Below are positions 7,062 through 26,395 of a DNA stretch of 26,395 nucleotides, piece after piece. Source of the stretch: a virus; IMG/VR virus record IMGVR_UViG_3300037191_002925, positions 1-26,395 of that record. One strand, given 5' to 3'. Under the pieces are notes generated by a model that had not been told where the DNA came from, made no database searches, and saw only the letters and a list, made by a program, of their open reading frames with translations. The position numbers were made by a program, and so were the translations under genes. Each line of letters opens with the position of its first letter. The stretch's first letter is position 1.

Positions 7062-7071
7062 ATGCTCGAAC

Positions 7072-7093
7072 TTTGCTATATAGATGAGATATC
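7072..7093 (+). repeat. 22-bp element, copy 1 (forward)
   Basis: The sequence begins TTTGCTATATAGATG and ends GAGATATC. It matches an inverted copy at 7241-7262 and a forward copy at 26335-26356, each at 21 of 22 positions. It is followed by a purine-rich run (AGGGTAGAGAAGACGG). No -35 box sits upstream, so it may be a phage-specific promoter, a regulator site or part of an origin. Confidence 0.85.
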
Positions 7094-7171
7094 CCAGGGT
7101 AGAGAAGACGGAAAAAACAGAAAGTCCAAATCGTCGCGCGGCACAGAGAAAGTACTAAGCCACTGTAAACG

Positions 7172-7200
7172 TTGTATAGCCAGATAGCTGATATTATGAT
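7172..7200 (+). promoter_or_regulatory. Sigma70-like promoter for the replication module
   Basis: TTGTAT (7172-7177) and TATGAT (7195-7200) are separated by exactly 17 bases. The -10 box lies inside the palindrome GATATTATGATATC. It faces the helicase gene at 7350 and would give a leader of about 140 bases containing the hairpin at 7290-7308. Confidence 0.55.
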
Positions 7201-7240
7201 ATCGGGGACGATTTATTTTAAATCACTTCCGCAAATGTCC

Positions 7241-7262
7241 GATATCTCATCTATAAAGCAAA
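7241..7262 (-). repeat. 22-bp element, copy 2 (inverted)
   Basis: On the minus strand it reads TTTGCTTTATAGATG then AGATATC, differing from copy 1 only at the seventh base. With copy 1 it forms an inverted pair whose inner edges are about 147 bases apart, enclosing an A/T-rich stretch (ATTTATTTTAAATC) and the predicted promoter. Confidence 0.85.
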
Positions 7263-7289
7263 CCTTGTCCTTTTGACTAAACACCGGTT

Positions 7290-7349: not shown

Positions 7350-8795
7350 GTGACAACATACCAATTCAAGACGCAACCGTATGAACACCAGTCTCAAGCC
7401 TTGCATAAAGGAGCAGATGCGCCGTTTTTTGCCTACTTCATGGACATGGGAACAGGCAAAAGCAAAGTGCTGTTAGACAATGTGGGCCTTCTCTTTGAAA
7501 GAGGCGATATAAAATGTGCCTGTATCATCGCGCCCAAAAGCGTTTATTTAAACTGGGCGGCAAACGAAGTTCCGTCCCATTTGCCCGACCGTTTTGAACT
7601 AGACCTGCTGTGTTGGGCACCAGGGTCTTCCAAACGCAATGAAGAGCAACGGAAAAACTTCCTGCGTAAGGACGACTCTAAACTAAAAATTCTTCTTATC
7701 AATGTAGAATCTTTAAGCACCAAAAAGGGGACAGCGTTTCTTGAAAGGGTGCTTCGCGCTCATTCGCCTAACCTTTTAGCTATTGATGAAAGCACTACGA
7801 TAAAAAGCCGAACTGCTGCAAGAACCAAAACGCTGCTTCGGCTGGCCCAGTACGCGAGCTATCGAAGAATTCTTACGGGTTCACCTGTAACGCAGTCACC
7901 CTTAGATTTGTTTACGCAATGTGAATTTCTAGAAAAAAGAAGTCTAAACCAAAACTCCTACTGGGGGTTCCTTAACCGCTATGCAAAAATACAACGTAAA
8001 ACGATGGGTGCGCACAGCTTTCAACAGGTGGTGGGGTACCAAAACCTGGAAGAGCTTAACCAGATTATCCAGCCCTTTAGCTTTCGGGTACGAAAAGAAG
8101 AGTGCCTAGACCTCCCAGACAAGGTGTATCAGAAAAGGGAGGTTGAGCTAACCCCAGAGCAGAAATCGGCTTACGAGAGCATGCGGCGTGCCGCAATGGC
8201 CTTCTTAGAAGAAGGGGAGGTGACAGCTAGCACCGTACTGACGCAGCTGATGCGGCTCCAGCAAATTTGCTCTGGGCACGTGAAGAACGACCAAGGGGAA
8301 ATAATCACTTTCCCTTCCAACAAAATTAAGGTGCTGCTAGAAACGTTGGAAGAAATAGAGGGTAAGTGCATAATCTGGTGCAACTTCACCCATGATTTGT
8401 TACGCATCGCTGAAGAGATTGAAAAGGTGTACGGGAAAGAAACGTATCGGCTTTTTTATGGCGCTGTGAAGATGGAAGATCGGCAACAGATTGTTAAAGA
8501 GTTTCAGGAACCAGAAAACCCGTTTCGGTTCTTTCTTGGCCAACCCCGTTCTGGTGGGTATGGCCTCACACTAACCCAAGCTCAAACAGTGATCTACTTT
8601 TCCAATGGGTTCGACTTAGAAATACGGTTGCAATCTGAGGACAGGGCGCACCGCATCGGGCAGACGAACAAGGTCACCTATCTAGACATTGTGGCAAAGG
8701 GTACCGTTGACGAAAAGATCCTTCATGCCTTACGGGGGAAAATCAACCTCGCCACGCAAGTGATGGATGAAGGTTACAAAAAATGGTTGGTCTAA
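7350..8795 (+). CDS. SNF2-family (SF2) DNA helicase/translocase, 481 aa
   Basis: This ATP-driven DNA translocase has the helicase motifs in order. Walker A is MGTGKS (33-38), motif II is DEST (146-149, rather than the common DEAH), motif III is TGSPVT (from 176), and motif VI is QSEDRAHRIGQ (428-438), which is diagnostic of SNF2/RapA-type proteins. It is short and lacks extra chromatin-type domains, as in many phages. The start is GTG, with AGGGGCAACC just upstream. It is the first gene after the control region and heads the replication module, so a role in replication initiation, fork restart or clearing bound proteins is likely. No nuclease domain is fused to it. Confidence 0.93.
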   Translation: MTTYQFKTQPYEHQSQALHKGADAPFFAYFMDMGTGKSKVLLDNVGLLFERGDIKCACIIAPKSVYLNWAANEVPSHLPDRFELDLLCWAPGSSKRNEEQRKNFLRKDDSKLKILLINVESLSTKKGTAFLERVLRAHSPNLLAIDESTTIKSRTAARTKTLLRLAQYASYRRILTGSPVTQSPLDLFTQCEFLEKRSLNQNSYWGFLNRYAKIQRKTMGAHSFQQVVGYQNLEELNQIIQPFSFRVRKEECLDLPDKVYQKREVELTPEQKSAYESMRRAAMAFLEEGEVTASTVLTQLMRLQQICSGHVKNDQGEIITFPSNKIKVLLETLEEIEGKCIIWCNFTHDLLRIAEEIEKVYGKETYRLFYGAVKMEDRQQIVKEFQEPENPFRFFLGQPRSGGYGLTLTQAQTVIYFSNGFDLEIRLQSEDRAHRIGQTNKVTYLDIVAKGTVDEKILHALRGKINLATQVMDEGYKKWLV

Positions 8796-12179: not shown

Positions 12180-13687
12180 TCCAAATATTTCTCGGACCCC
12201 CCGGTACGGGAAAAACCGAAACCAGCATTCGCATTGTAGAAAAGTACCTAGAAAAAGGTGTCCCACCAGACCGCATAGCCTATTTGGCCTTTACCAGACG
12301 GGCCAGCTTAGAAGCAAAGCATAGGGCTATGGAGCGCTTTAATCTCACCGTATCAGAGCTCCCTTACTTTAGGACTCTTCATAGCTTGGCGTATTTGCAG
12401 CTCGGTATCCTGCGTAGCCAAATCATGAGCCGCAAGCACTTTGAAGAAGTTTCGCACTGGTTAAAAATCGGCACGTTTTTTGGGAAAGAGCAAGAGGCTG
12501 GGCCGTTTAGAGATTTTGGCTACGGTGATAAATACTTAGAGCTCATCAACATTGCTCGAATCACGCAGATGCCTTTAAAGAGTGTGTATGAAGCAAGCCC
12601 ATCTCGGCACTTAGTAACGTGGAGCAACCTTGAATATGTGGCGCGGGGGCTCTCCCACTATAAGAAAGTTCATTCCTTATACGACTATACCGATATGCTG
12701 GAGCAGTTCATTTGTGGGGCGTTTTGCCCTAAGCTTGAAGTTGTCATAATAGATGAAGCCCAAGATCTTTCTGCTTTGCAGTGGCAAATGGTTCATCAAA
12801 TCGCCAAGAAAGCTGAGCACGTTTATATCGCAGGGGATGATGACCAAGCTATTTACCGATGGGCTGGGGCAGACATTGATCACTTTATCAATTTAGCGGG
12901 TTCGGTGCATACGTTAAGCCAGTCGTTTAGAATTCCTAAAACCCACCATGAAATCAGCCAGCGCCTTATTAAAAGTGTCTTTAACAGAAGGGATAAGCAG
13001 TTCCTTCCACGGGCAGAAAATGGAACGATTAGTTGGTACCGTCACAGTGAGCAGGTCAACTTATCGGAGGGGGATTGGTTACTCCTTGCAAGAACGGTGC
13101 GCGGGGCCAACCAGTTAGAGGAAGAAGTGCGCAGCCGAGGATATTTGTATGATTATGAAGGAAGTTCTAGCGCGGATAGTAGGGTGATCCAAGCTATTAC
13201 TATCTGGGAAAAAATGCGTGAAGGGTATAAGTTTTCAGTCACAGACATCCGCAAAGTCTACAAATTAATGCGTGTCAATGAGCAGGTGGCTTATGGGTTT
13301 AAAGGCTTGCAAGGCACCGAGGAAGACATGCTTTACGGGATAGAAGAACTCCAAGAGAGTTTTGGGTTGTTAACCGACAGCCCCTGGGAGAAAGCGTTGG
13401 GTTTGGTCAGTGAACGCGATGCTAGGTACATAGCCGCTTGTTTGAAAAAAGGTGAGCGGTTAACGGGAACGCCTCGCGTTAGGATATCTACCATTCATCG
13501 CGCTAAAGGTTCGCAAGCGGATAACGTGTGCTTGATGACTGATATCAGCGCACGATCAAACTCACGGTGGTCCGCAGTTGAGCAAGATGACGAAGCCCGT
13601 GTTTTTTATGTGGGGCTTACGCGAGCAAAACAATCCCTGCACTTGATCCACCCCATGCACGGCTCTGGTTATGAGCTCCCAGCCTAA
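12176..13687 (+). CDS. UvrD/Rep-like SF1 DNA helicase, 503 aa
   Basis: This should be a 3'-5' ATP-dependent DNA helicase. Motif I is GPPGTGKT (7-14), Ia is AYLAFTRRA, motif II is IDEAQD (Asp193-Asp197), motif III is GDDDQAIYRWAGAD (from 220), motif IV is SQSFRIP, motif V is ISTIHRAKGSQADNV and motif VI is VFYVGLTRAKQSL. That is a complete UvrD-type set in a compact protein, without the long 1B/2B inserts or C-terminal Tudor-like tail of UvrD. It is coupled to the primase gene by ATGA, so the two probably work together at the fork. It may be the main fork helicase if no DnaB-like protein exists elsewhere in the genome. Confidence 0.94.
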   Translation: MIQIFLGPPGTGKTETSIRIVEKYLEKGVPPDRIAYLAFTRRASLEAKHRAMERFNLTVSELPYFRTLHSLAYLQLGILRSQIMSRKHFEEVSHWLKIGTFFGKEQEAGPFRDFGYGDKYLELINIARITQMPLKSVYEASPSRHLVTWSNLEYVARGLSHYKKVHSLYDYTDMLEQFICGAFCPKLEVVIIDEAQDLSALQWQMVHQIAKKAEHVYIAGDDDQAIYRWAGADIDHFINLAGSVHTLSQSFRIPKTHHEISQRLIKSVFNRRDKQFLPRAENGTISWYRHSEQVNLSEGDWLLLARTVRGANQLEEEVRSRGYLYDYEGSSSADSRVIQAITIWEKMREGYKFSVTDIRKVYKLMRVNEQVAYGFKGLQGTEEDMLYGIEELQESFGLLTDSPWEKALGLVSERDARYIAACLKKGERLTGTPRVRISTIHRAKGSQADNVCLMTDISARSNSRWSAVEQDDEARVFYVGLTRAKQSLHLIHPMHGSGYELPA

Positions 13688-13760
13688 TTTATCAAAAGAG
13701 CAAAACGTACTACCACCCGTTGTTCGTGCCCCGTACTTTGGTTTTATAACCAGCTTATAG
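13671..13760 (+). CDS. Possible 29-aa peptide overlapping the helicase end
   Basis: An ATG at 13671 opens MSSQPNLSKEQNVLPPVVRAPYFGFITSL, ending at TAG 13758-13760. It fills most of the gap before the next gene, but it lacks a clear ribosome-binding site and also spans a promoter-like sequence. I list it as a weak candidate. Confidence 0.25.
   Translation: MSSQPNLSKEQNVLPPVVRAPYFGFITSL
13720..13748 (+). promoter_or_regulatory. Possible promoter upstream of the 91-aa and DUF932 genes
   Basis: TTGTTC (13720-13725) and TTTATA (13743-13748) are 17 bases apart. The -10 region lies in a near-palindrome, GGTTTTATAACC. An AGGAGG ribosome-binding site for the GTG start at 13771 follows. Confidence 0.4.
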
Positions 13761-13770
13761 GAGGAACCTT

Positions 13771-14046
13771 GTGGCAGTACAAATAACCTATGCAACGAAA
13801 GGCTTGCTGCGGGACATAAACCAGCAAGCTATTGAAAATGGCTATAACCGGGCTTGGGACGTTAGGTTTTTAGAGACCCTTCCAGAAGCTCACTACCCGG
13901 TTTATCACAGCGCCATACACAATGAAGAGCATATGCGCGTTGTGTTCATGCTTGACCAATCAGGCACAGAAGCCCCTTTAGACATGTCGTTTGAAGAGTT
14001 TGAGCACCTGCCCCGTTCAATGTTTGAAGATGAGGAGGAAGAATAA
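13771..14046 (+). CDS. Conserved small acidic phage protein, 91 aa
   Basis: The GTG start is chosen because AGGAGG lies at good spacing. The protein starts MAVQITYATKGLLRDINQQAIENGYNRAWDVRFLETLP and ends in a very acidic tail (MFEDEEEE). No known motif is seen. Its stop overlaps the DUF932 start as TAATG, so both are made together. An ssDNA mimic or partner of the DUF932 protein is conceivable, but there is no direct evidence. Confidence 0.8.
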   Translation: MAVQITYATKGLLRDINQQAIENGYNRAWDVRFLETLPEAHYPVYHSAIHNEEHMRVVFMLDQSGTEAPLDMSFEEFEHLPRSMFEDEEEE

Positions 14047-17601: not shown

Positions 17602-18684
17602 ATGTTCACTTTCAATGTGCGTAATGTAAGCGAAGCCCTGTTTGTTGTGAACCAAAGCCTAAAAGAAAATGGTGTACTTCGTGAAACACGAAACGGCCCC
17701 GCGTTAGAGTTTCCCGCGCCGGTCGCTGTTTCCTACAGTCACCCCAAAGAGCGGGTACTGTTCTATCCTCAAAGAGATGCCAACCCGTTCTTTCACTTCA
17801 TGGAAAGTATGTGGATGTTGGCCGGGCGCAGAGACGTTGAGTTTGTGCAACGGTTCAACAACAGAATGTCCGTCTACAGCGATAACGGTGTCAACTTCCA
17901 CGGGGCATACGGGTACCGATGGAAGAATTGGTTTGAAGACAACCAATTAGATATTATCATCGCACGATTAAAAGAGTACCCAAACGACCGCCGATGTGTC
18001 CTAAATATGTGGGATCCAGATAGTGATCTCACCTCTGGGAACCACAACGTAGATCTCCCTTGCAACACCCACATCTACTTTCGTGTGGAAGAAACAGGCT
18101 CCCTCGTTCCCAACCGGTTGCACATGACCGTGTGCAACCGCAGCAATGACATGATTTGGGGTGCGCTCGGAGCGAACGCAGTGCACATGAGCTTCCTGCA
18201 AGAGTACATGGCCGGGATGGTTGGCGTTGCGGTTGGAACCTATGTTCAGTTCAGCAACAACTTCCACGCCTACCTAGACACATTGCCCAAGTTGGAGGGC
18301 CTAGTCGCCGACTACGAACCCTACCTGACGTTTTCAGAAGTGAACAACACCCCCTTGGTAATGGATACGGAAACGTTTGAGGAAGAGCTAACGTACTTCA
18401 TGGACGGCCAAGAGCCCCTAATGCAAAGAGGCTACGACTACCTAAACGATTTTTTCCCCTACGTTGCAGAGCCCATGCGGGAAGCATGGCAGCTTTGGAA
18501 AAGCCCTACAAAAGAAGTTGGGAAAGCAATCCAAGCCGCTGAAAAAATTCAGTCTGCCGATTGGCGGGTGGCCTGTTGCGAGTGGCTTCAACGAAGGGCA
18601 CCCATGCGCTACGAAGTGAACACGCTAGCGCCAGAAGAAGAATGGGGCTGCGCAAGCGCACAAAAGCCCAAAGAAGGAAAATAG
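17602..18684 (+). CDS. Thymidylate synthase-family enzyme, probable dUMP hydroxymethylase, 360 aa
   Basis: The enzyme should transfer a one-carbon unit from methylene-tetrahydrofolate to C5 of dUMP. Catalytic Cys154 lies in DLPCNTHIYF. NRSNDMIWGALGAN (179-192) corresponds to the dUMP/phosphate-binding RSxDxxxGxPFN loop, with Arg180, Ser181, Asp183 and Asn192, and QFSNNFHAY follows. Asn at the base-recognition place favours uracil over cytosine. The loop has one residue more than in E. coli ThyA and lacks the PF, and the protein is about 95 residues longer than ThyA. Location in the modification operon favours making 5-hydroxymethyl-dUMP rather than dTMP, but a true thymidylate synthase cannot be excluded. 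Confidence 0.88.
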   Translation: MFTFNVRNVSEALFVVNQSLKENGVLRETRNGPALEFPAPVAVSYSHPKERVLFYPQRDANPFFHFMESMWMLAGRRDVEFVQRFNNRMSVYSDNGVNFHGAYGYRWKNWFEDNQLDIIIARLKEYPNDRRCVLNMWDPDSDLTSGNHNVDLPCNTHIYFRVEETGSLVPNRLHMTVCNRSNDMIWGALGANAVHMSFLQEYMAGMVGVAVGTYVQFSNNFHAYLDTLPKLEGLVADYEPYLTFSEVNNTPLVMDTETFEEELTYFMDGQEPLMQRGYDYLNDFFPYVAEPMREAWQLWKSPTKEVGKAIQAAEKIQSADWRVACCEWLQRRAPMRYEVNTLAPEEEWGCASAQKPKEGK

Positions 18685-18687
18685 CTC

Positions 18688-19026
18688 ATGGACAGTGAAA
18701 TCATAGAAGTTGTTAAAGCGCTTACTGAAAAAGATTGGAAAGCGCTGCGGAAGTCTGAAGAAAGCTACGGCGATAGCTGGCGCAAAAGAGGGGGAGTAGG
18801 TGCCTTCATGATGCTGGCCCGCAAGTGGGACAGGATAAATGTGCAAGTGGAAAAATCTTCCTACGATGTGTTCCACGCCGTGGAAGAAGACGGGCGGGAA
18901 GAAGGAATACTAGACGATATCAAAGACCTTCGGCGTTACCTTCTACTGGTTGAAGCGTGGTGTTGGATGCAAACCGAAGAATACGCCATTGATCAGGAGC
19001 CCATTGATCCCGAAGAGGACACTTGA
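18688..19026 (+). CDS. DUF1599-like nucleotide-modification-associated protein, 112 aa
   Basis: The motif SEESYGDSWRKRGGVGAFMMLARKWDRI followed by ILDDIKDLRRYLLLVEAW resembles DUF1599 proteins, small all-helical relatives of MazG/dUTPase-type nucleotide pyrophosphohydrolases that recur beside DNA-modification genes. It could hydrolyse an unmodified nucleotide so that the modified one is favoured. It begins 3 bases after the TS-family stop and is the fifth gene of the operon; the next start overlaps its stop (TGATG). The assignment rests on motif resemblance. Confidence 0.75.
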   Translation: MDSEIIEVVKALTEKDWKALRKSEESYGDSWRKRGGVGAFMMLARKWDRINVQVEKSSYDVFHAVEEDGREEGILDDIKDLRRYLLLVEAWCWMQTEEYAIDQEPIDPEEDT

Positions 19027-19202
19027 TGCAAGAAGGGGTAACCCCTGAAAGCAACATGGAAAAGCCCCTGCTGGCAACTTGCACTTGTAGCGCAGAAGCT
19101 AGGACACTTGTTGTTAGAACGCTCAAAAACAAATGGCCTAAGTGCTCTTGCGGCCTGTTCATGAAGGTTGAAAAACAATGGTTAAAGACCACAGACAAAT
19201 GA
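19026..19202 (+). CDS. Small zinc-ribbon-like protein, 58 aa
   Basis: The ATG overlaps the upstream stop by one base. The protein has paired Cys residues, TCTC (residues 18-21) and KCSCG (39-43), about 20 residues apart, with Trp and Lys between, consistent with a tiny zinc ribbon. Its stop overlaps the internal polymerase ATG at 19199 in ATGA. The double overlap makes it a likely real gene. Function is unknown; a polymerase accessory role is possible from position. Confidence 0.65.
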   Translation: MQEGVTPESNMEKPLLATCTCSAEARTLVVRTLKNKWPKCSCGLFMKVEKQWLKTTDK

Positions 19203-21112
19203 CCTTCTTTGCCCCCAAGGGGGAATGGGTAGCACCAACAGAATTTCCTGACCTATCAGCGTACAGCACCATAGCCGTGGATCTTGAAACAAGAGACCCA
19301 CACCTCCGTGAACGCGGTAGCGGGTGGCCCCGAAAAGACGGGTACATTATCGGTGTCGCAGTAGCTGTTGAAAATGAAGCATGGTACTTCCCTATCCGGC
19401 ATGAAATTGGCCCCAACCTTGATGTGAAGCGAACCTTGGGCTGGCTAGCTGACCTGCTTAAAGAACCCACTCGGCAAGTTGTGTTTCACAATGCGCAGTA
19501 CGATGTGGGCTGGCTCCTCGCTGAAGGGGTAACCATCCACTCGGCAATACGCGACACCATGGTGGTTGCCCCTTTGTTGGATGAAAATCGGTTCAGCTAT
19601 TCGCTAAATAATTTAAGCAGAGACTACCTTGCAGACATTAAGTCAGAAAAAGGCTTACGAGAAGCAGCCGCTGAGTTTGGTGTGGATGCCAAGAGCGAAA
19701 TGTACAAGCTTCCAGCCAGCTTCGTAGGGGCCTACGCCGAGCAAGACGCAGCGCTTACGCTACGGTTGTGGAACCACTTTCAAGTGCTGATTGTTAAAGA
19801 AGACATAGCGGATATCCTAGCTCTTGAAAACAAAGTCCTCGCTACCGTCATACCCATGCGGCATCGTGGGGTGCCCATTGATATAGATAGGGCCGCAGAA
19901 CTAAAAGGGTACTTCCACAAAAGAGAAGTAGAATTCCTAACCGAAATAAAGCGCGAGACAGGCAAAGACGTTGAAATATGGGCTGCTGCGAGCATTGCCA
20001 AAGCCTTTGACGCGATTGATCTGCCCTACCCCCGCACCGAAAAGACGGGTGTTCCAAGCTTCACCAAGTTCTGGCTAAAAAACCACGAACACAAAGTTCC
20101 CAAAATGATTGTAGAAGCACGAGAGCTTAACAAGGCCCGAACGACCTTCGTAGACACCATCCTCAAACATAACCACAATGGTAGAATTCACGCTGAACTG
20201 AACCAACTGCGAAGCGACGACGCAGGAACAGTCACCGGGCGCTTTAGCTACAGCAACCCTAATCTGCAACAAATGCCTGCACGGAACGCTGAAATTGGCC
20301 CGTTAATTCGCAGCCTGTTTGTGCCCGAAAAAGACACCGTGTGGGGCACCTTTGATTACTCCAGCCAAGAGCCCCGCTTGGTTGTGCACTACAGCAGCCT
20401 TCTAGGGTTCAACGGGGCCACGGCCTTTGCAGATGAGTACCATAAAGATGCAACAACAGATTTCCACCAAATGGCAGCGGATATTGTGGGCCTTCCTCGC
20501 AAACAGGCCAAGGACATCAACCTTGGGTTGTTCTATGGGATGGGCACCAAGAAGCTAGCGACGAGCTTGGGGCTGGAGTTAGACGAAGGTAAAAAGCTTT
20601 TTGAAGAGTACCACGCAAAAGTTCCGTTTGTGAGCCAGTTGAGCGAATACGCTATGAAGCGCGCTTCCACCAAGGGGGTGATCCGCACCCTGTTAGGTAG
20701 GCGGTGCCGCTTTGATAAGTGGGAGCCCAGCCGGTATGGCCTATACAAGTCTCTAAGCTACCAGGAGGCCTATGACGAGCACGGCCCTAGCATTCGCCGC
20801 GCCTTTACCTACAAGGCCCTCAACAAGCTTATACAGGGCAGCGCAGCGGATCAAACCAAAGCAGCCATGGTCGCCCTGCACGAAAATGGCTACTTGCCCA
20901 TGATACAAGTACATGACGAGCTTGACTTTTCGGTGTCTTCTGAAAAAGAAGCCAAGGAGATCAAAGAAATCATGGAAACCTGTGTAGAGCTACGGGTGCC
21001 CAGTCTTGTAGATGCTGAGTTCGGTAAAAACTGGGGGGAAGCAAAACAAACCTTTGGAGATAAACCATGGACACGAGGGATAACGGGGAAACACTCACAG
21101 ATGGAGACGTGA
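19178..21112 (+). CDS. Family A (Pol I-type) DNA polymerase with 3'-5' exonuclease
   Basis: This is the replicative polymerase. The exonuclease motifs are VDLETRD (Asp35, Glu37), FHNAQYD (Asn105, Asp109) and YAEQD (Tyr186, Asp190), so proofreading should be active. The polymerase motifs are A FDYSSQE (Asp393, Glu398), B RKQAKDINLGLFYG (Arg441, Lys445) and C VHDEL (His579, Asp580, Glu581). The residue equal to E. coli Phe762 is Leu449. There is no 5'-3' exonuclease domain. The start is uncertain: ATG 19178 has an AAGG site, while ATG 19199 overlaps the upstream stop as ATGA, the habit of this genome, giving 637 aa. It overlaps the next gene by 46 bases. Confidence 0.97.
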   Translation: MVKDHRQMTFFAPKGEWVAPTEFPDLSAYSTIAVDLETRDPHLRERGSGWPRKDGYIIGVAVAVENEAWYFPIRHEIGPNLDVKRTLGWLADLLKEPTRQVVFHNAQYDVGWLLAEGVTIHSAIRDTMVVAPLLDENRFSYSLNNLSRDYLADIKSEKGLREAAAEFGVDAKSEMYKLPASFVGAYAEQDAALTLRLWNHFQVLIVKEDIADILALENKVLATVIPMRHRGVPIDIDRAAELKGYFHKREVEFLTEIKRETGKDVEIWAAASIAKAFDAIDLPYPRTEKTGVPSFTKFWLKNHEHKVPKMIVEARELNKARTTFVDTILKHNHNGRIHAELNQLRSDDAGTVTGRFSYSNPNLQQMPARNAEIGPLIRSLFVPEKDTVWGTFDYSSQEPRLVVHYSSLLGFNGATAFADEYHKDATTDFHQMAADIVGLPRKQAKDINLGLFYGMGTKKLATSLGLELDEGKKLFEEYHAKVPFVSQLSEYAMKRASTKGVIRTLLGRRCRFDKWEPSRYGLYKSLSYQEAYDEHGPSIRRAFTYKALNKLIQGSAADQTKAAMVALHENGYLPMIQVHDELDFSVSSEKEAKEIKEIMETCVELRVPSLVDAEFGKNWGEAKQTFGDKPWTRGITGKHSQMET

Positions 21113-24912: not shown

Positions 24913-24928
24913 CACTGCCTCCCAGCCA

Positions 24929-24949
24929 TCGGCCACCGTACTATTATAA
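24929..24949 (+). promoter_or_regulatory. TCGCCC-type promoter-like site
   Basis: TCGGCCA (24929-24935), 8 bases, then TTATAA (24944-24949) inside the near-palindrome TACTATTATAACAGTA. It stands before the hairpin at 24952 and the gene at 24992. Confidence 0.4.
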
Positions 24950-24951
24950 CA

Positions 24952-24972
24952 GTAGGGCGGTGGTCGCCCTAC
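24952..24972 (+). other. Leader hairpin with the shared GGGCGGTGGTCGCCC motif
   Basis: GTAGGGCG (24952-24959) pairs perfectly with CGCCCTAC (24965-24972) around a GTGGT loop. The 15-mer GGGCGGTGGTCGCCC recurs at 25620-25634 in front of the next gene. The left arm can also pair upstream with CCACCG and TACT, so two structures compete. It ends 19 bases before the start codon. Confidence 0.65.
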
Positions 24973-24991
24973 ACACAAACAGGAGGGTCAC

Positions 24992-25579
24992 ATGGCTTTA
25001 CCAATAGGCATTCCACCATACGCGCCGTTCCAAGGTTGGGGCGGCATCGCCAAAGGGCAACTGCACACACTCGCCGGGCCAATACCCGCCGAAGTGCTGG
25101 CAACCCTACCCGAAATCACCATAGCCCTGTGCGTTAGCGAATACCTACCACACGAGGTAGGCGACCTTATGCAATGCATACCCGAGCAAATGGTAACGTG
25201 GCTAGAACAATGGGATCTACACGGCGGCTCCAAACTACCCGGCTCCAAACTACACACCCTAGCCGAATGGGTGGTGCCACAAAGCGAAATACAAAAAATG
25301 CTCGCACCACAAATAGGCTCCAACAACTGGGCCACAAACCAAAGCGACTATCAAGGTCGCCTACAACTCATTACCGGGGGCCAGCACAACGGCCTCGCGT
25401 TGTTCAGCTGGTCATGCGGTAGCTGCGGCAAATTTGCTTGCGGCAATAGCTGCGACCCCTCAGGCGTTAGCGCAGGGGGCTGGGGCGGGCCTCTAGGCAT
25501 CACACTGGTACACACCACCAAAGGCATGGAGCACTTTGCAGCACTCGCAAAACCAAGCCCAACACCGACCAAACACTAA
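24992..25579 (+). CDS. Unknown protein, 195 aa, Cys-rich patch
   Basis: A strong AGGAGGG site precedes the ATG. No known domain. The protein is rich in Gly, Pro and Trp, with a Cys cluster (WSCGSCGKFACGNSC, about residues 140-154) that could bind metal, and a short tandem GSKLP/GSKLH repeat. Codons prefer A or C at the third place, unlike the left-end genes. A promoter, leader hairpin and gene of its own suggest an early accessory protein, possibly acting on the host, but nothing in the sequence shows which. Confidence 0.7.
   Translation: MALPIGIPPYAPFQGWGGIAKGQLHTLAGPIPAEVLATLPEITIALCVSEYLPHEVGDLMQCIPEQMVTWLEQWDLHGGSKLPGSKLHTLAEWVVPQSEIQKMLAPQIGSNNWATNQSDYQGRLQLITGGQHNGLALFSWSCGSCGKFACGNSCDPSGVSAGGWGGPLGITLVHTTKGMEHFAALAKPSPTPTKH
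25226..25255 (+). repeat. 15-bp tandem repeat in coding sequence
   Basis: GGCTCCAAACTACCC (25226-25240) is followed by GGCTCCAAACTACAC (25241-25255), 14 of 15 identical and in frame, giving GSKLP then GSKLH. Confidence 0.9.
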
Positions 25580-25592
25580 TAGGCACACACAA

Positions 25593-25634
25593 TCGCCCCG
25601 CGTAAAATGTACATACGCGGGGCGGTGGTCGCCC
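25593..25634 (+). promoter_or_regulatory. Promoter-like site within two competing hairpins
   Basis: CGCCCCGCGTA (25594-25604) pairs perfectly with TACGCGGGGCG (25614-25624); the -10-like TAAAAT at 25603 lies at the junction of arm and loop. The right arm overlaps GGGCG (25620-25624), which can instead pair with CGCCC (25630-25634) over GTGGT. Both hairpins cannot form at once. The site is 25 bases before the start at 25660. Confidence 0.55.
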
Positions 25635-25659
25635 AACGTACCAATCAAGGGGTTATCCA

Positions 25660-26281: not shown

Positions 26282-26309
26282 GGGGGGGCAACAGCTCCCC
26301 CTCTTTTTT
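26282..26309 (+). terminator. Strong intrinsic terminator
   Basis: GGGGGGGC (26282-26289) pairs with GCTCCCCC (26294-26301), one G-T pair, over an AACA loop, followed by TCTTTTTT. It ends the rightmost transcription unit. Confidence 0.9.
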
Positions 26310-26334
26310 AACCAACACACCGAAAAAGAAAAAG

Positions 26335-26356
26335 TTTGCTATATAGATGTGATATC
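26335..26356 (+). repeat. 22-bp element, copy 3 (forward)
   Basis: TTTGCTATATAGATG followed by TGATATC differs from copy 1 at a single base. It is followed by a purine-rich run (GGAGAATGGAGAGAGAG), as copy 1 is, and sits 26 bases after the terminator, where a promoter for the next operon would be expected. The rest of the window (to 26395) shows no gene. Confidence 0.85.
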
Positions 26357-26395
26357 GGAGAATGGAGAGAGAGAAAAAGTTTTTCGGAAACAAAG

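Follow-up and report, generated by a model that had tools for sequence, protein, structure and literature searches.

A conserved non-coding region, here called R, heads both main operons in a group of ocean phages and is probably, with a rough probability of 0.6, a two-way promoter or cis-control region whose internal box is read by a phage-specific regulator. The newest and most interesting point is that this control region is present in two copies and carries a fast-changing box that is matched inside each genome. The window analysed here is an entire virus record of 26,395 bases, classed as linear and probably a fragment, with the genome of the window phage incomplete. It contains virion-like and lysozyme genes followed by a replication module (SNF2-type helicase, primase, UvrD-type helicase, thymidylate synthase and PolA), plus the terminase small subunit gene, terS. 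The nearest named proteins to its PolA, at 51-54%, are those of 023Pt_psg01, DSL-LC04 and the Pelagibacter phages HTVC027P and HTVC023P. Probable thymidine hypermodification genes are also present, encoding a 5-hmdU DNA kinase-like protein (PF18723; 15682-16560) and a ThyA-family enzyme (17602-18684). A hairpin-forming direct repeat, GGGCGGTGGTCGCCC, lies directly ahead of each of two consecutive small genes (24955-24979 and 25620-25644) and is a possible local regulatory element.

The window holds three copies of the 22-mer TTTGCTWTATAGATGWGATATC, at 7072-7093 on the plus strand (found by sequence scan), at 7241-7262 on the minus strand (TTTGCTTTATAGATGAGATATC) and at 26335-26356 on the plus strand (TTTGCTATATAGATGTGATATC, one mismatch relative to the copy at 7072-7093). 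The repeat, already recognised in a sequence-only reading of this DNA, is real and non-random, with three matches at up to three mismatches in the window and none in 100 dinucleotide shuffles. All three copies are intergenic, rather than inside genes at random places as that reading had named as evidence against a promoter family. The strong terminator reported before the third copy is likewise present: a G+C-rich stem (26282-26301) and a T run form an intrinsic terminator on the plus strand (26282-26309), which closes the replication operon directly ahead of the second R copy.

On the alignments, the 22-mer is merely the end of the larger element R, of about 150-250 bp, in which inverted ends (ASTTTNCTATWATAG...CTATATAGYAAAST) enclose a GC-rich box and a GATAT...ATATC motif. 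In close relatives the 22-mer pattern always occurs as a facing pair, 169-222 bp apart, and in the window lineage the GC-rich box between the paired ends is AATCGYCGCGCGG. A profile search finds R twice in the window, the second copy being partial. The full copy, R1, is located on the plus strand at 7065-7270 (nhmmer E=3.5e-29, and alignments) at the head of the replication operon. Its E1 end (7072-7093, minus strand) has the outward -10-like box TATATAGCAAAGT and faces the end of the lysis genes. On the plus strand follow the GC-rich box TCCAAATCGTCGCGCGGCACAG (7125-7146), the inner motif GATATTATGATATC (7190-7203) and the E2 end (7241-7262). E2 has the outward -10-like box TATAAAGCAAACC and faces the SNF2-type helicase gene, the first large gene past R1 on the gene map (7350-8795, plus strand; PHROG 62, E=1.9e-120). 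The visible part of R2 (26329-26395, minus strand) is its E2 end, which is the originally noted 22-mer (26335-26356, minus strand when read outward) and faces the terminator of the upstream operon. E1 of R2, the end facing the packaging genes, lies beyond the window end. Contig L006, which is 98.5% identical to the window over 711 nt, carries the whole copy (L006:6449-6705), with the box counterpart TCAAAATCGCCGCGCGGCCCAC aligned to that of R1, and continues into the nuclease, TerL and portal genes; here the mate of the 26335-26356 copy is found 222 bp away, forming an inverted pair. Read outward, both ends of R have CTATWATAG or CTATATAG followed by AAAST, and E2 is conserved more strictly than E1. 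A GATATC block inside the window 22-mer, upstream of the -10-like box, recurs within R and is a possible operator.

Exact-pattern scans of viral contigs returned the 22-mer only in close relatives and in scattered, apparently unrelated matches, and a profile was therefore built from 26 R sequences and used in nhmmer searches of relatives. Phages about 69% identical in PolA have the same region with an altered box. At E<0.1, the replication module lies between two R copies in 11 relative contigs (G001, G002, G006, G007 and G010-G016, with G001 and G002 being one species), the usual spacing being 15-21 kb. In G010 (E=0.03) and G012 (E=0.016) the weaker of the two scores only marginally, all others have E-values of 5e-6 or below, and dinucleotide shuffles, five per genome, gave nothing below E=0.19. 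Three shorter or partial contigs (G003, G004 and G005) have a single copy, and the profile did not find R in G008, G009, HTVC023P, HTVC027P, 023Pt_psg01 or DSL-LC04. A blastn search of R against GenBank phages gave nothing convincing. All exact matches to the strict end motif CTATWATAGNAAAST in 22 genomes or contigs (about 900 kb) are at R ends. Relatives thus have the element nowhere but at the heads of their two main operons, which supports the earlier proposal of a phage-specific promoter family at operon boundaries and answers its call for further copies. Two other repeats were seen at contig ends: contig L105 starts with a CCGAC-type short tandem repeat array (L105:1-140) upstream of packaging genes, and G003 (L190) has a long array of direct repeats of about 66 bp (18728-19612).

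R2 invariably separates the replication module from the packaging genes, and its E1 end lies toward TerL. The start codon of terS is 5-25 nt from R2 in most relatives, downstream in the outward direction, whereas in the window lineage terS sits inside the module and the nuclease gene is next to R2 instead. A terminator-like hairpin precedes R2 in the window, G001, G002 and G006. R1 is found at the opposite module end, where the replication genes begin: between a leftward helicase gene and rightward replication genes in G006 and G010-G016, downstream of a helicase gene of the same direction in G007, and ahead of the helicase gene in the window, G001, G002 and G004. Relative to R2, R1 is inverted in the window, G001, G002 and G011-G014 and direct in G006, G007, G010, G015 and G016. 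This orientation varies between species, within-species variation not being seen among the few strains, and the presence of R1 in both orientations at a conserved place fits a two-way promoter or element.

Promoter function is indicated first by the outward direction. Since the -10-like box found outward at both ends is near-palindromic, it is not directional by itself; similarity to TTGACA at 16-18 bp, scored as matches of six against shuffled expectation, is enriched outward at both E1 (3.20 versus 2.58, p=.002) and E2 (3.45 versus 2.64, p<.001) and not inward (2.25, p=.95; 2.85, p=.06), although these p-values are optimistic, the sequences being related and some near-identical. The view that the element lacks a -35 box holds for the window's own R ends, and a promoter scan of the window found no sigma-70-type site at the 22-mer copies. 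When sites are ranked with a plain sigma-70 matrix, the outward E1 site comes out on top in only 13 of 38 copies, with other AT-rich sites often scoring higher, among them the inward site at E1. Second, a Shine-Dalgarno-like site is present in 3 of 24 terS genes behind R2 as against 42 of 73 other genes (Fisher p=1.1e-4, again optimistic for the same kind of sequence set), as expected if the mRNA starts at or just before the ATG. Third, an operon that is preceded by a terminator-like hairpin and begins with terS 5-25 nt from R2 needs a promoter there. The most likely reading direction of the R ends is hence outward, on the opposite strand from the purine-rich flanks that had been taken for the first transcribed bases. 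What limits our confidence in the promoter model to 0.6 is that a conserved end may face no gene. A conserved outward end without a co-directed gene is found at E2 of R2 in the genomes mapped and at E1 of R1 in the window lineage. Such an end would be better explained by an origin, a looping regulator or an antisense transcript than by a plain promoter.

The main rival to the promoter model is a replication origin present twice, in which an initiator binds to the box and GATAT motifs, melting occurs in the AT-rich stretches and the ends serve as initiator or primer-promoter sites. The conservation of both ends even where no gene is faced fits such an origin, as do the flanking of the replication module, the 150-250 bp of conserved non-coding DNA with AT-rich inner segments, the matching of the box between copies and the free orientation of R1. 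However, cumulative GC skew has no turn at R in 11 genomes (coding bias may hide one), R has short GATAK-type repeats and no regular iteron array was seen, and replication has no need of two origins that sit at fixed operon heads and adjoin start codons at one end. We thus regard an origin as unlikely, while still the alternative to be taken most seriously.

A further line of evidence is that the box is matched within genomes. Among 11 genomes with both copies (the R2 of the window being taken from L006, and box segments being delimited by eye), the mean local score between the boxes of R1 and R2 is 15.2 within and 7.1 between genomes (permutation p<5e-5). Matching within genomes extends more weakly to the ends and the inner motif (p=0.03, 0.001 and 0.0001) but is not seen in the 40-nt flanks of the box (p=0.20 and 0.05). 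Neither R copy of G015 retains the CGCG core, yet its two boxes are the same (TTTCCCAGAAAGCCCCGAAAGT). Because the flanks differ, the whole region has probably not undergone recent gene conversion, and the simplest reading of the matching is a shared trans-acting, co-evolving DNA-binding factor. Box matching could also reflect the crossover core of recombinase sites, E1 and E2 then serving to flip R1 or the module between R1 and R2, and inverted ends and the opposite orientations of the R1 interior among relatives are what such sites would show. Against this, R2 and the module have one orientation relative to TerL in all contigs, the boxes of R1 and R2 within one genome are not identical and no recombinase was found among the window proteins scanned, making site-specific inversion quite improbable.

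A third alternative, the one proposed by the sequence-only reading, is that the 22-mers are inward promoters of a phage-encoded single-subunit, T7-like RNA polymerase, on the grounds that they lack a -35 box and that the forward copies are followed by purine-rich DNA. T7-type RNA polymerase (PF00940) is absent from 15 of 15 relatives, including complete 57-62 kb isolate genomes, whereas the T7 control is positive (E=9.9e-110), and it was not found in fragments including L004-L006 either. In addition, R contains an inverted pair although the genes are mostly codirectional, so that convergent pairs would leave one copy per pair antisense to codirectional genes, and the sequence flanking the motif on its inward side shows no conservation among relatives. 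We consider this very unlikely. The earlier promoter idea was right in part, with the strand and the polymerase type probably wrong. Little probability is also left for R2 as a packaging (pac) site bound by TerS, with R1 as a second such site: R2 adjoins terS and the box is species-specific, but the second copy is 15-21 kb away and can be inverted, and the TerS of G015 is not unusually diverged although its box is wholly different. Least probable is a structured RNA, or a cruciform formed by E1-E2 pairing, since the inverted ends, nearly perfect in the window, show no covariation (E1-E2 likeness 0.53 within the same R, 0.58 between different Rs) and an Rfam search of R gave 0 matches.

From the anatomy of R, its two copies and their position, the outward -35 similarity, the short start-codon distance and the box matching, we infer promoter activity, the polymerase used and a regulator. 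Under this promoter model, each R end would be an outward core promoter, with the -10-like CTATWATAG and a start near the conserved AAAST, used by the host RNA polymerase. R1 would drive transcription of the replication operon and, in most relatives, of the divergently oriented helicase gene, and R2 that of the packaging/late operon, often yielding a terS mRNA with almost no leader. One phage-specific regulator would read both the inner box and the GATAT...ATATC motif, tie the two operons together and co-evolve with the box. More tentatively, R may be a fast-evolving 'address' system, in which the box recognised by a phage-specific factor varies between phages yet is kept matched at two distant sites, coupling replication with packaging/late transcription, and possibly serving as origin too, so that co-infecting relatives are not cross-activated. 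A search of the replication module for a conserved regulator gene gave no clear candidate. Small helix-turn-helix proteins with weak similarity to sigma region 4 are encoded between PolA and R2 in G011 (26155-26673), G014 (28251-28628) and G012 (24919-25305). As the matches are weak, mutually unlike and absent elsewhere, we make no claim for them as a sigma-like factor.

Comparable arrangements are found in known systems. In phage lambda, OR with PR and PRM is an example of a divergent promoter-operator region. Like the R model, lambda-type regions have promoters facing apart around sites for a phage regulator, and species-specific operators; in contrast, R has two matched copies that head the replication and packaging operons, with promoters at the outer ends, and lysogeny genes were not noticed in the parts of R-bearing phages seen. 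The R ends resemble T7-like phage promoters in being short conserved sequences repeated at operon heads and, in the window copies, without a -35 box, but differ in the relatives lacking a polymerase gene, in occurring at only two places per genome, in forming inverted pairs and in the likely opposite reading direction. Intergenic regions of DSL-LC04 (20554-20773; OR003939, our L182) and 023Pt_psg01 (13639-13877; MW574966, our L204) also have a CGCGCG box flanked by inverted arms, close to terS or heading an operon, though they are too diverged for the profile and one copy was seen in each, which points to an element of greater age than the profile can detect. The HTVC023P-type pelagiphages HTVC023P and HTVC027P share the gene order of the window's replication module (PolA 51%, TerL 59-61%), but the profile does not detect R in them. 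The words promoter, sigma and motif are absent from the transcriptome paper on HTVC027P, whose early genes are all of unknown function (PMC12753301), and our literature search did not find a description of such a region. According to published work, relatives of the HTVC023P-type pelagiphages belong to the most abundant phages of the ocean (PMC9599517). A conserved control region present in two copies offers definite sites for mapping transcription starts in these ocean phages, R can be used as bait for the missing regulator, and a box matched inside each genome makes the co-evolution of factor and site directly testable.
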